Assembly (NCBI GenBank): GCA_002189035.1
Contig: NEEC01000011.1
Span: 3,162,001 to 3,226,000 of the forward strand
DNA length: 64,000 nt
Direction of reading: 5' to 3'
Source: Utricularia gibba
Taxonomy: Eukaryota > Streptophyta > Magnoliopsida > Lamiales > Lentibulariaceae
Both the position numbers and the translations under genes were made by a program. The notes under the pieces are model-generated. The model was not told where the DNA came from. It did no database searches and worked only from the letters and a program-made list of their open reading frames with translations. Below are positions 5,435 to 12,941 of the stretch, piece after piece; the first letter of the stretch is position 1, and each line of letters opens with the position of its first letter.

Positions 5435-8400
5435 ATGGCTACTGCGGCTTATGCCTCTCTGCTTTCTGTGAGGCAAGTTATCGGCGGAATCCGTCAACTC
5501 CATGATTCTGAAAGGATAGCTCTCTGGGACACTCAGCAGCTTCGGAGTCTTGATGACATTGCTCTATCCTTACAGGAATTTCTTGAAAAAAATCGTTCTT
5601 CAGAGGCGGAGGATTTGCTTCTTCAAATCCCTGTTCTAGCTACTGAAATACAAGCTACTTTAGATGGGGAGATCGTTAACCAGCTCAAGAGAAACTTTGC
5701 TGCTGGCTTCACATGTTTTATTCGTCCTGTTGAACTCTTCATTCTCAAGGTACAAGACTCCATTAACAATGGTGGGCTATCTCCAAAAAGGAAGAAAATT
5801 GACGATTGTGGGCTTGCGCACACTGTGGAAAGCCAAAATGCCCCCGGTTCAACGATTGCATTTACCCCGAAAGACCGAATTGCTGCGGTGGGAATTTACA
5901 AAGATGTGGAATCTATAATTGATAACCTCTCTGGTTCTGATCCGCGACTTCGAACAATCATGGTTTACACAGGGGGTTTCGAAGGTATCTCCTTCTTTGT
6001 CTGCCTTCAGCGAGATCGCCGGATACAAACGAGTTTTGAGTTGTTGTTGTGGGGAGATATTTCTGATGAAAGCAGTGCACTTTCTACTCTCAGAAGCTTC
6101 GTGGGAGTAGAAAATGGGCAAGGGAGCTTCGAGGACTTAGGCGAGAAGCTGCATAAGAAGCTGTTAAATCGCAAGTATTGCATTCTGCTAAGTGATTCTA
6201 GTTACTTGTGGGAACAACTGAGGCAATATCTCCCGGATGATCGAAATGGAAGTGCAGTTATCGTGTGCACAGCATCGACGAAGTCGTATGGTACAACATA
6301 CCCCCATTATACTCTGGCAATCGATGACAAGTATAAGCTTGATGAATACACTCTGGGAATCGATGATTTTTCCAATGAAAAGTACAATCTTGTGTTGGAT
6401 CGAATCCCGAAACAGTTGTATGCGTGTGATCACACTCTTCTAGATGCACAACAGCTTCAAAGTCTCCAAGCCCAATTTGAAAGTCTACAGAGATGTATGG
6501 ATGATCATCATCACTCTCTAGGCTATGAAACAGAGTCTTTAATTCGAGAAACTCTTGCCATTGTGGTGAAATCCCGAAACCTCGCTGACCAGCTTGGAGG
6601 ATACACCGAACAAGGCTTTTCATCGGTTATTGAACCCTTGGATAAGTTGATCAAAAGACTAGATTCTATCAGGAATAGTTTGCTGCTGGTGAAGTTAGTA
6701 AATGTGGACATTTCCTCTGTGCATTCTTTTTCTGCTGATGTTTCACTTGGGAATACCAGAGATAGAGCAACTGCTGCGGTGGGATTTGACAAGCACGTGG
6801 AATGGGTAATGGAGAAGATAAAGAGTGAGGAACGGAGCCTTCAAGTCATTCCCATAGTTGGAATGGGTGGAATAGGTAAGACGACTTTAGCTCGTTGTGT
6901 TTTTGATAAAATCTCCAAGACTAGGAGATTTGATAGAGAATATTGGTGCACACTGTCTCAAGAAAGTAATGTTCTTCATGTTCTTAAAAGCATTCTGAAA
7001 GATAGGAGCCATGGAAACCAACTTGAGGATGGACATACATTGCATGAGGAGCTCAGTGGGTACAGGTACTTGATCGTGCTAGATAACATGTGGAATTCTG
7101 GTATTTACGAGCAACTGCAGCCTTATCTGCCAGAGGGTATGCAGAGTCGAATCATAGTGACCACAAGGATGTCTGATGTGGCTGATTCAGTGAAGTCACA
7201 ACACTCTTATCCTCTAGAATTTCTAAATGAGAATGAGAGTTGGACTCTATTGCAACAAAGGGTCTTTGATGGAGATGACTGCCCAGACTCTTTAGTGGAA
7301 ATCGGGAAAAATATTGCAAAGAGTTGTGGTGGGCTTCCATTATCATTAGTCACCATTAGTGGGGTGCTTTCAAAATCAAAGAGTGTTTTGAATTGGAATC
7401 GCATTGCACAAGATGTGAGGAGAGTTTATGGTGGTGGGGATTATGAGAACTGTTTCAAAATCCTATCTTTGAGTTACAGCGTTCTGCCTATCTATTTGAA
7501 AACATGTTTTCTCTACTTCGCATTTTTCTTAGAAGAGGAACCGGTCCGTGTGACTGAACTGCTCCGGTGTTGGATTTCCAGTGGATTGGTGAAGCCCGTA
7601 GAAGATCGAACAATGCAAGATGTTGCAGAAGGGTACTTGAAGGAGATGATTAACAGGTACTTGGTTTCAGTCCGGGGTGCTAATCTTATTGGGAAGATCA
7701 ACTACTGCGGCGTTCATGATCTTTTACGAGAGTTTTGCATAAGGGAAATAGAGAAAGAGAAGTTCCTTGCCACTGATATCCCGAGACTACAGATATTTGA
7801 TGCAGAAATTAAAAGCTTGTGCAACTTGTGTAGCCGATCTGTGTCCCAAGCCTGCAATTTAGACTTGGTGGGTCTCAAGGTTTGCCAAAACTGTGTCAGC
7901 AGATTCCCATATCTTTGTAGATCAAGGTTTGTGAACTTCACCTACTTCGACTGTAGAGTTGGAAGTTACGAATGGAGGAAGAAATGTGACCAGTTACTGC
8001 CTAAAGTTACTGCAATTTGCCACAGGTGCAAACATCTGTCTTCTGTCTTGGAGGAGCCAGTGATGCTCCAGTTCCCCGAGCTTTGCGAATCATGCATGGA
8101 GTTGCTATCCTCCCTTCTCTATATGTCACTTGTTCCTGAAGGGGAGGTACATTTCACTCATCCCAATCCCACCACCGTGCAGTACATCAATTGCAAGGCC
8201 AACCCATCCTTTGAAATCTTTGCATTTGGAGCTCCGTCACCGATCCTCCTTTTCTGGAACCTACAGTTCCTTGTGATCGAAGATTATTTTTTGGACTCTG
8301 AAACCTTTTTCCCAGATGAGATATGGGAGATGCAGCGACTGAAACATCTTGAAATCAGCGATTTCTGCTTACCCGAGCCAGAGATGAAAAAAAATGTCTC

Positions 8401-9064
8401 TGTTTTGAAATATCTACACAGACTCCACGTTAAAAAGCTGCCTTGGAGCGAGGAGGTTGCTAAATTGCTCCCCAATTTGATGAAGTTGAAGGTAAACGAT
8501 TGCTGGGATGTCGAGATTTTGCCAGACGAGTCTCTGCAAACCAGTAAACTCCAATCTCTCTACCTCCGTGACAGTCCAGTCTCCGCGCTGGGGAGCTTGA
8601 GCTCCCTCTGCTCACTGAAGAAGCTCTCTTTGGAGGGATTCATTTCCTACGACTGGGGAGCAATGAGCGCGATCGGCCGCTTGCCGAATCTGGAAGTCCT
8701 CAAGCTGATCGACTTCGGTAACCCAGATGGGGAATGGGACACAACAGAAGAGGAGTTCCCCAAGCTGAAGGTGCTGCTGCTCGAGGGAAGGGGCCCTGGA
8801 GTCTGGAGAGCTGAGGGCGATGCTCCTTCTTTCCCAGAATTGAAGCGGCTGATCATCACCAGAATCGGGAAGGAGCTTGAGGTCCCTCTCCAGATCGGAG
8901 ACATCCCGACGCTGTGCTCCATCCGTCTGGAATTCGTTCACCCAATCGTGATCAAATCGGTGGTGGAACTGCTGAAGGAGAACGAGATCCTGGAAGTATA
9001 TCTGGATAAAAAGCTGATCACCAAATCTGATTTGGAAGACGAGGAGAGACTGATTTGGGCGTGA
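5435..9064 (+). CDS. CC-NLR with duplicated degenerate CC-NB unit and Cys-rich insert
   Basis: A single uninterrupted exon encodes 1209 residues. The C-terminal two thirds is a canonical NLR. The P-loop GMGGIGKTT starts at residue 476 and kinase-2 (YLIVLDN) at 545. RNBS-B (IIVTTR), GLPL (CGGLPLSL) and VHD in place of MHD (760-762) follow, and LRRs run from about 930. Two features are unusual. First, residues ~30-300 mirror residues ~335-600 at an offset of 297-305: DTQQLRSL 32 / DAQQLQSL 337, AAVGIYKDVE 150 / AAVGFDKHVE 447, YCILLSD 248 / YLIVLDN 545. The first NB copy has lost the P-loop lysine and the kinase-2 pattern, and no GLPL or MHD follows it. Second, residues 796-887 carry four CxxC pairs between NB-ARC and LRR. 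The N-terminus looks R1-like. The likely role is an intracellular immune receptor. Another same-strand NLR lies 1.1 kb downstream. Confidence 0.95.
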   Translation: MATAAYASLLSVRQVIGGIRQLHDSERIALWDTQQLRSLDDIALSLQEFLEKNRSSEAEDLLLQIPVLATEIQATLDGEIVNQLKRNFAAGFTCFIRPVELFILKVQDSINNGGLSPKRKKIDDCGLAHTVESQNAPGSTIAFTPKDRIAAVGIYKDVESIIDNLSGSDPRLRTIMVYTGGFEGISFFVCLQRDRRIQTSFELLLWGDISDESSALSTLRSFVGVENGQGSFEDLGEKLHKKLLNRKYCILLSDSSYLWEQLRQYLPDDRNGSAVIVCTASTKSYGTTYPHYTLAIDDKYKLDEYTLGIDDFSNEKYNLVLDRIPKQLYACDHTLLDAQQLQSLQAQFESLQRCMDDHHHSLGYETESLIRETLAIVVKSRNLADQLGGYTEQGFSSVIEPLDKLIKRLDSIRNSLLLVKLVNVDISSVHSFSADVSLGNTRDRATAAVGFDKHVEWVMEKIKSEERSLQVIPIVGMGGIGKTTLARCVFDKISKTRRFDREYWCTLSQESNVLHVLKSILKDRSHGNQLEDGHTLHEELSGYRYLIVLDNMWNSGIYEQLQPYLPEGMQSRIIVTTRMSDVADSVKSQHSYPLEFLNENESWTLLQQRVFDGDDCPDSLVEIGKNIAKSCGGLPLSLVTISGVLSKSKSVLNWNRIAQDVRRVYGGGDYENCFKILSLSYSVLPIYLKTCFLYFAFFLEEEPVRVTELLRCWISSGLVKPVEDRTMQDVAEGYLKEMINRYLVSVRGANLIGKINYCGVHDLLREFCIREIEKEKFLATDIPRLQIFDAEIKSLCNLCSRSVSQACNLDLVGLKVCQNCVSRFPYLCRSRFVNFTYFDCRVGSYEWRKKCDQLLPKVTAICHRCKHLSSVLEEPVMLQFPELCESCMELLSSLLYMSLVPEGEVHFTHPNPTTVQYINCKANPSFEIFAFGAPSPILLFWNLQFLVIEDYFLDSETFFPDEIWEMQRLKHLEISDFCLPEPEMKKNVSVLKYLHRLHVKKLPWSEEVAKLLPNLMKLKVNDCWDVEILPDESLQTSKLQSLYLRDSPVSALGSLSSLCSLKKLSLEGFISYDWGAMSAIGRLPNLEVLKLIDFGNPDGEWDTTEEEFPKLKVLLLEGRGPGVWRAEGDAPSFPELKRLIITRIGKELEVPLQIGDIPTLCSIRLEFVHPIVIKSVVELLKENEILEVYLDKKLITKSDLEDEERLIWA

Positions 9065-10186: not shown

Positions 10187-12941
10187 ATGGCCGTCAAGAT
10201 TGCTCTCACGCTTTTCGAGGAGTACTTGAAGCAGTTCGTAGTGGGGAAGGTGGCGGACATCATCAGCTCGTTTTTCTCCTCCGAGAAGGAGAATATCGAG
10301 AAGCTTCAGAAGCGAGTTTTGAGTTTGAAAGCGGATCTCGCCGACGGGGTCAACAGGAAATCCAAAGGGGAAGCCCTCAAGAAATGGGAGAAAGCCGTCC
10401 GCGATATCATCGATGAAGCCGAGGACGCCATCGACGCGGCCATGACTGCGCAAGTGCTCCGCAAACGTGGAACTCCTGCGGATCTCAAGGGAATTCTGGA
10501 AAAGATAGACCAAGACTTCGGCAACGTCAGGGCTGAGTTCCGCATGTTGGAGCTGCAGGCGCCCAACCAGGCCGCCGGAAGACCTGCCGCTTATCGATTT
10601 AGAATGGTGATGATTTGAATTTGATCTGATACTCCACAGAGTTATTTGCACGGAGATCTGGCATGTGTTTTCTTACTTGGTATGTTTTTTGTTTGGTTAG
10701 AAAGAACCGCTGAAGGACAAGAGGGTCGTTGGTTTCGAGGATGACATACAGAAATTGATTGAAATGCTGCGAGAAGAGGAGAAGCGGACGGAAGCCATCT
10801 CTATAGTCGGGATGCCAGGGCTGGGGAAGACGACTCTGGCATCTAAAATCTACCACCATGCCGCTATGAAGCATCACTTCACGAAGCTGTATTGGGTTAG
10901 TGTCTCCAAGGAGTACAATATGAAGGAGATTTACACACAGATTCTCAAGCAACACAGGCAGACCCGGGGGACTGATTACTCCACATGGTCGGAATCTGAT
11001 CTGCTGGATAAAGTTCGGGAACGCTTGGAAATTGTGAAGTTTCTACTGGTCGCAGATGATGTCTGGCCTGGCGATGCATGGGAAAAAATCAGCGCCATCC
11101 TACCGATACGTAATGACGCATCGTGGAAAGTGCTGATAACAAGCCGTGATTCCAACTTGGCTGTGAGAGCAAACGCTAACCGACGTCCCTACGAGCTTCG
11201 GTTTCTGAATCAGGAGGACGCGTGGACTCTGCTGCAACTGGAAGTGTTCGACGAAAAGGGCAGGTGCCCACCGGAACTAAAAGAAATCGGACGAAAGATA
11301 GCGAAAAAATGCAATGGACTACCGCTTGCCGTGGTCGTGACAGGAGGGATTCTGAGAGACAAAGAACGAAGAGAAAGCGAATGGGAGAAGGTAGCAGACG
11401 GGGTGGTGATCGCAGATTCTGAAGACATAAAGGGTCTTGAAAACATCATATCACTGAGCTATGATGAAATGAATGATGAGTTGAGAGATTGTTTCCTGTA
11501 TCTCTCCGTGTTTCCAGAGGACTTTGCTATCCCCGCCAGGAAGCTGACACGCTTATGGATCGCTGAAGGCCTAATATCTGAACAGTCTGAAAACAACATG
11601 AGCTTGGAGGAGATTTCTGAATCGAATCTGAACCAGCTTATAAAATCAAATCTGGTCATGGTTGAGAAAAAGGGCGTTGAAGGTTTCCCCTCAGTTTGCA
11701 AGGTTCATGACGTGATTCGTGATTTCTGCAAGAGCAAGGCTAAGGAGCGCAATTTTGTAATGGAGCTCAGGAACCTCCCCGGGGAAGGTTTCCGTCCCAA
11801 GATTGCCGACGTTGGTATGCACCGCCGGCTGTGCATCCATTCCTCTGTTCTGGAATTCTTCAAGAAAAGACCCAAGTGTCCTCGTCTGCGTTCCTTCCTT
11901 TGCTTCACAAACACTAGCGTCGAAGTTCAATTGGAATTGGCTCCACGTATCAGGGAAGCGTTTGAGCTACTCAGGGTCTTTGAGGGAGAATCGATCAAGT
12001 TTCCCAGACCATTCCCTAAACTTACAGAGCTTATCCACCTGAGGTATATCACCTTCGCTGCAGGAGATCACTACCAGAAATTCCCTGGTAAGATTTCCAA
12101 TTTCTCCAACTTGCAGACGCTGGTCATCGAATCTTCCACTAGATTCACTGTCGACGCAGATTTACTGACACTGCCTCGATTGAGGCATTTGATCATAAAG
12201 GCTTACATTGCTATTGAAAAGTGGAGAGATGATCTTGAACCCAATGAGACTCTCCAAACTCTCAGTAGAATATCTGCTGAGAGTTGCAAGGTGGGTGTGT
12301 TGAAGAAGACTCCCCATCTCAAAACCCTGGGCATTCGAGGAGACATGAAGTGTCTATTGGGTGAGGACTCTTTGTATGAGTTAGCATACCTCAAGAAGCT
12401 GAAGGTGATTCATGTTCCGGGATCTGAGAGCTCGCTGGTAGGTTTCCTTGACAACACGAGATTTCCCGAAAGCTTGGAACACCTCACTTTACAGGAGACA
12501 AACCTGGATTGGAGTTGCATGAATCAACTGAGCATGCTCCCGTGCCTCAAAGTTCTGAAATTGAAAGACCATGCATTCAGCGGAGGTACAGAAGAATGGA
12601 ATGTTGCCGGCTATGGATTCCCACGTCTGGAGCACCTTCACATCCAACGCTGTAAACTCAAGACTTGGACCACTGAGAAGGGTTCATTCCCCAGACTCCG
12701 ATCTCTTGTTCTGAAGATCTGTGAGAGTTTCGGTGAGATCCCCAAGTGCTTGGCGGAAACACTCGAAAAACTGGAGTTGAATCATGTGACAACAGAAACA
12801 GTAAAATCCGCCATTGCGATCAGGGACACAGTGAAGCTCAATCAGGATGGATCCTCCATCGGAAAACGTGAGTTTGTGCTCAACATTGCCCCCGACGATC
12901 TACAAGGTTCAACAGCTAGCCCCCAGAAGCGACCCAGGTAA
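10187..12941 (+). CDS. CC-NB-ARC-LRR disease-resistance protein
   Basis: Two exons (10187-10606 and 10701-12941) with a 94-bp GT-AG intron in phase 0 encode 886 residues. Exon 1 carries an Rx-type coiled coil, including a DEAEDAID segment that resembles the EDVID motif. Exon 2 begins just before the NB-ARC: P-loop GMPGLGKTT at about residue 177, kinase-2 FLLVADDVW, RNBS-B VLITSR, GLPL CNGLPLAV, and VHD in place of MHD (KVHDVIRDF). Irregular LRRs follow to a basic C-terminus. All nucleotide-binding motifs are intact, so this receptor should be functional. It is only distantly similar to the NLR upstream, lacks that gene's Cys-rich block and duplicated unit, and has an intron where the upstream gene has none. 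The pair is therefore not a recent tandem duplicate. Confidence 0.94.

Follow-up and report, generated by a model that had tools for sequence, protein, structure and literature searches.

The open reading frame described here lies in a 64,000-nucleotide stretch of Utricularia gibba DNA (the window). It raises the question of whether a plant NLR carries a second, degenerate copy of its own front half ahead of a near-complete receptor, and what such a copy could do there. We consider it very probable that the duplication, the degeneracy of the first copy and the single reading frame are all real. The role of the first copy is argued below with less certainty.

Two CC-NBD units in one open reading frame

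The frame starts at an ATG with G at both -3 and +4, and an in-frame TGA lies six bases 5' of it. Pfam places NB-ARC at residues 452-682 of the protein, the NLR winged helix at 702-767 and a weak LRR region at 935-1167, and the layout CC-psiNB-CC-NB-ARC-LRR proposed in a preliminary description of this DNA is borne out in one uninterrupted frame (Table 1). The genome searched comprises 100 Mb in 516 contigs with about 45 NB-ARC matches, and the window is on contig 255. The close paralogs on contigs C304, C328, C321, C414 and C244 are each a single uninterrupted frame, so a hidden intron is unlikely, and the gene is probably one exon.

Table 1. Features of the NLR gene and its downstream neighbour, in window positions
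Feature	Position	Strand	Remarks
NLR open reading frame, CC1-psiNBD-CC2-NB-ARC-LRR	5435-9064	+	1209 aa
CC1, residues 1-140, N-terminus MATAAYASLLSV	5435-5854	+	four helices predicted
Degenerate NBD of copy 1, residues 147-323, ending at RNBS-C, without ARC1/ARC2	5873-6403	+	
Dead P-loop site YTGGFEGIS, residues 178-186	5966-5992	+	K to G
Dead kinase-2 site YCILLSDSS	6176-6202	+	
Short tandem repeat near the end of copy 1	6308-6366	+	20 nt, 90% identical, 39 nt apart
CC2, residues ~324-440, no initiator Met of its own before 355	6404-6754	+	
NB-ARC of copy 2 with ARC1/ARC2, residues ~447-784	6773-7786	+	Pfam NB-ARC E 3e-54, WH_DRP E 6e-13
P-loop of copy 2, GMGGIGKT	6860-6883	+	
Kinase-2 of copy 2, LIVLDNMW	7070-7093	+	second acidic residue is Asn
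MHD-type motif VHDLL	7712-7726	+	
Cys-rich insert between ARC2 and LRR (CNLC 796, CQNC 817, CHRC 862, CESC 884)	7820-8095	+	
LRR region, residues ~935-1167	8237-8935	+	Pfam LRR_14 E 1e-9, below cut-off
NRC2-like NLR neighbour	10187-12941	+	NRC2 E 7e-145 over NB-ARC-LRR; Rx_N E 6e-10

Self-alignment of the protein matched residues 30-279 to 334-577, with 74 of 257 positions identical (29%, E 4e-19). Shuffling gave a z of about 29 for copy 1 against copy 2 overall, 9 for the CC alone and 20 for the NBD alone. The in-order repeat reported earlier (about 30-300 against about 335-600) is thereby recovered, and all the motif pairs quoted for it were found. In the DNA, a 48-nt repeat with 77% identity occurs at positions 5878-5925 and 6769-6816, 891 bases apart; a search for a further copy of the copy 1 NBD in the DNA found none. 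Between the two copies, second codon positions are the most alike and third positions the least, which is the pattern of coding DNA (pN 0.48, pS 0.66). In copy 2, the repeat can be followed back to where helix 1 ends. With no Met ahead of residue 355, copy 2 lacks a good initiator codon. In terms of the open frame, two homologous signalling and nucleotide-binding units lie in one polypeptide, as in a tandem-assembled NLR.

The nucleotide site of copy 1 is degenerate in the way first described: the P-loop site lacks its Lys, kinase-2 is lost, aligning as ILLSD--SS with the Walker-B D changed to S, and neither GLPL nor MHD was found after RNBS-C, copy 1 stopping before ARC1. RNBS-B reads TAS in place of TTR, and its arginine is gone. 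A full NB-ARC is not present in both units, copy 1 being an NBD alone that scores 19.6 against the Pfam NB-ARC cut-off of 23.5. It keeps 12 of the 31 columns conserved among 14 paralog NBD segments, and core hydrophobic columns are still hydrophobic at 35 of 44 positions, compared with 29 of 109 elsewhere (P 2e-9). Copy 1 is a real second CC-NBD, and by every motif checked it is dead for nucleotide binding.

The preliminary description had proposed to predict the fold of the copy 1 NBD. AF2 models of copy 1 were built on an alignment of three rows, one of them the other copy. The pLDDT was 48, compared with 57 for the copy 2 control, both of low confidence. The order of elements was the same in the two models: four helices, then beta-alpha-beta-alpha-alpha-beta-alpha-beta. 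Foldseek returned four matches with E <0.001 for the copy 1 model, all plant CNL chains (ZAR1, NRC2, NRC4), and in VIA-align 139 residues of the stretch 146-309 superposed on the NRC2 NBD at 4.0 A, with a Z of 7.8 that falls in the grey zone. Phosphoribosyltransferases at a similar VIA-align Z were discounted as sharing a Rossmann-like arrangement. Because copy 2 was part of the alignment, the result is support and no independent proof that the predicted NB fold signature is kept in copy 1.

Copy 2 had been called complete. ARC1/ARC2, the P-loop GMGGIGKT and the MHD-type VHD are present, and a weak LRR region follows, but the Walker B of kinase-2 reads LDN in place of LDD, which leaves copy 2 not fully canonical. 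All 13 other paralog segments compared have LDD or MDD at this site. Judging from Walker-B mutants in NLRs, LDN in copy 2 could impair hydrolysis.

Like the window gene, most members of this NLR clade (L032, L033, L038, L040, L041, L011-L013 and L022) carry a Cys-rich CxxC insert after the MHD motif and ahead of the LRR; the insert is missing from the three C321 genes. It looks zinc-binding from its sequence, and Pfam gave no match to it. Its two CxxC units compared with each other at a z of 1.2, which is not significant, so no duplication is claimed within the insert.

Relatives, origin and selection

Among the roughly 45 NB-ARC matches of the genome, no other CC-NBD-CC-NB gene was found. The window protein has 475 residues before its P-loop, compared with 161-259 in every other intact protein examined; within that range, the N-terminal region measures 242-259 residues in four sister genes (one on C328, the other three on C321) and 161-212 in the other intact genes. 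The extra N-terminal part of the C328 gene (L038) is a second CC-like unit (z 6-7), and a profile comparison of CC1 with CC2 in the sister group gave E 1.6e-5. CC2 of the window gene matches CC2 of the C328 gene at z 7.5 and its CC1 at z 4.5. In the gene at C1:844 kb (L023), about 36 residues of the CC are repeated (z about 6). Judged by these alignments, N-terminal duplication recurs in this NLR group, and in one case it takes in the NBD.

Some other features of the relatives were recorded. The N-terminus MGNCLGTAP of L040 (C244:984 kb) resembles a lipidation signal, and L032 and L033 carry long acidic D/E-rich C-terminal tails beyond the LRR. Near-identical NLR matches on C414, C415 and C439 suggest duplicate or haplotype contigs. 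NLR contraction is on record for the bladderwort-like lineage (PMC9579050).

The tree placed copy 1 and copy 2 together (UFBoot 88, AU 0.80). The NBD pS between them, 0.57, is the lowest among all pairs that include copy 1, with a bootstrap of at least 0.96 except against the two C304 paralogs (0.86-0.87). At the protein level, copy 1 is 29-33% identical to copy 2 and the C304 paralogs and 17-22% identical to NRC2-like genes. On the lowest pS and the UFBoot value, a duplication within the window gene's own lineage is the best reading; it is unproven, as the AU test also allows copy 1 to sit with C304, with the C328/C321 clade or outside. Alternatively, one ancestral CC-NBD duplication is shared by the window gene and its sisters, and the sisters lost the first NBD. 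Such deletions occur: a remnant of a related NLR on C451 near 5.949 Mb (L019) has no NB-ARC, its CC directly adjoins the Cys-rich/LRR part, and in-frame TGA codons interrupt it.

The amino acids of copy 1 have changed faster than those of copy 2 relative to every outgroup (bootstrap 0.97-1.00). In a branch codon model of the NBD, with saturated branches, an omega of 1 was weakly rejected for copy 1 (2dlnL 5.3, P about 0.02), and its omega was indistinguishable from the background. The values for the CC columns are meaningless because the alignment is saturated. The 327 codons of copy 1 contain no stop, and a neutral simulation at 0.2 per site stayed stop-free in 0.2% of runs, so the open frame has been selected. 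Selection for read-through into copy 2 would suffice to explain this.

The NRC2-like neighbour and possible roles of the dead unit

When the window protein was compared with PDB sequences, NRC1-4 all ranked at the top (NRC3/NRC2 best, E 6e-73 to 5e-71; the rest to 3e-56), followed by Sr35 (2e-47) and ZAR1 (2e-43). Its NB-ARC is nearest to NRC among the CNLs represented by PDB sequences, which places the window gene, as judged by similarity, within the asterid NRC superclade. The NRC2-like gene lies 1.1 kb downstream on the same strand, head-to-tail with the window gene, with a CC exon from 10187 to about 10615, an apparent intron at about 10615-10700 and an NB-ARC-LRR exon at about 10701-12941. 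NRC0-linked sensors start with MAHAAVVSLxQKL and have no MADA, and NRC sensor-helper linkage is on record (PMC11371149). In a comparison of the translation made by eye, the N-terminus MATAAYASLLSV appears to resemble this pattern. Homology and linkage together make it probable that the window gene acts as a sensor with a helper, and from the sensor-like N-terminus and the adjacent NRC2-like gene we read the two as a likely sensor-helper pair.

Our leading interpretation, which we give an even chance, is a tandem-assembled NRC-type sensor in which the dead CC-NBD forms an N-terminal extension whose structure is maintained and whose role is probably regulatory. An upstream tandem copy would have lost everything from ARC1 onward, and what remained of it would have been fused in frame to the next copy, close behind the start codon of that copy. 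The LRR, possibly with the Cys-rich insert, would perceive the ligand, and the single working NB-ARC would switch. A 320-residue extension should stop CC2 from forming a membrane funnel, so the signal would pass to a helper, for which the NRC2-like neighbour is the probable candidate. Unable to switch, the dead CC-NBD would most likely serve the working CC-NB-ARC as a constitutive surface for docking or restraint. We hold the odds on such a regulatory or docking role to be balanced. The self-alignment, the clean end at RNBS-C, the homologous start of CC2, the lack of a start in copy 2, the stop-free frame, the retained core and predicted element order, the NRC2-like neighbour and the smaller CC duplications in related genes speak for this tandem-sensor interpretation; the fast evolution of copy 1, as expected of weak constraint, speaks against it, as do the weakness of the codon-model rejection, the AU result on the sister of copy 1 and the low-confidence models. 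A more specific form is a built-in pseudo-protomer, which we regard as improbable. Here, the dead CC-NBD would pack on the working CC-NB-ARC like the neighbouring subunit of a resting or active complex, restrain a receptor whose ATP hydrolysis is possibly poor (LDN), and oblige it to act, without forming a pore, as a sensor for the NRC helper beside it.

The main rival to a regulatory extension, somewhat unlikely in our judgement, is an accidental fusion in which copy 1 has no role and stays in frame only because it carries the start codon, with stops and frameshifts purged by selection on the downstream NLR while the amino acids of copy 1 drift. The loss of all nucleotide-binding residues checked, the 12 of 31 conserved NBD columns left, the faster change of copy 1 and the single such gene in the genome speak for this account; a hydrophobic core retained far beyond chance speaks against it, and so does the rejection of neutrality on the copy 1 branch, part of which may predate the fusion. 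The earlier suggestion of a pseudo-partner is weak as stated: copy 1 is no integrated copy of the neighbouring helper, and the likely partner is that separate NRC2-like gene. We regard as improbable an integrated decoy, in which the dead CC-NBD would mimic an NLR attacked by pathogens and effector binding to it would trigger the receptor. The extra domain does sit at an N-terminal position that other integrated domains use, the structure of an effector bound to the NRC1 NB-ARC has been solved (8bv0), and one CNL has an SD extension to which an effector binds (PMC12787737), but the closest relatives of copy 1 are copy 2 and paralogs from its own clade, and NRC helpers are more distant. We think a gene-model artefact, in which copy 1 would be a pseudogene, a gene of its own or a spliced-out segment and the joint frame would have arisen by chance or misassembly, very improbable: copy 1 is stop-free throughout, copy 2 has no start before residue 355, the close paralogs are single-exon, and at 48% nucleotide identity the copies are too unlike for an assembly error between them.

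If the dead front unit is functional, the gene would be a natural example of control in cis, in which a pseudo-copy of an NLR's front half regulates the receptor that contains it. Its N-terminal extension would then be an NRC-sensor extension made by duplication, not by capture of a sequence such as SD. If it is baggage, the gene shows how tandem NLR arrays generate extended N-termini. With the helper gene adjoining, the question is directly testable by co-expression.

Comparison with known systems

The architecture had been described as not standard, which is right, although tandem assemblies are already published. TNTNL, TTNL, CNNL and CNLNL proteins are on record (PMC3782705, PMC2175511); RPP2A, a TNTNL, is functional, and CNNL and CNLNL come from grape and poplar (PMC3782705). 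Like these, the window gene repeats signalling and nucleotide-binding units within one protein. Unlike TNTNL, CNNL and CNLNL, it is a CC-NBD-CC-NB-ARC-LRR of NRC type whose first unit is cut before ARC1. This first unit is also nucleotide-dead. Our literature search found no truncated, nucleotide-dead CC-NBD ahead of a near-complete NRC-type CNL.

With the SD-CC-NLR sensors (R1, Mi-1.2, Rpi-blb2, Sw-5b, Hero and Prf), the window gene shares its place as an NRC-superclade CNL with a long extension before the working CC. In the SD type, the extension is presumed to preclude channel formation (PMC12236159), and parts of it regulate Mi-1.2 both ways (PMC3782705). In contrast to these sensors, the extension in the window gene is a CC-NBD copy: the SD model PF12061 gave no match to the window protein, and a genome search for the SD domain, run without a positive control, was empty. 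The window gene is similar to the NRC0 cluster in that a sensor-like NLR, with an N-terminus that appears MAHA-like, has an NRC helper homolog close by, in this case at 1.1 kb; a doubled front, which sets the window gene apart, is not described in the passages of that report consulted (PMC11371149). Pik-1 and RRS1, with integrated domains, and Pb1 and RXL, with truncated or divergent NB-ARCs, likewise carry an extra or degenerate module; in the window gene, however, the module is no outside domain but copies the front half of the receptor itself, and it stands alongside a near-complete NB-ARC.

The window gene brings together tandem assembly and the N-terminal extension known from SD-type NRC sensors. 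Since tandem assemblies such as TNTNL, CNNL and CNLNL are published, it is a variant of them and not a new class. Tandem-built receptors were already known; what is new is the order of a dead front and a live back beside a likely helper gene.
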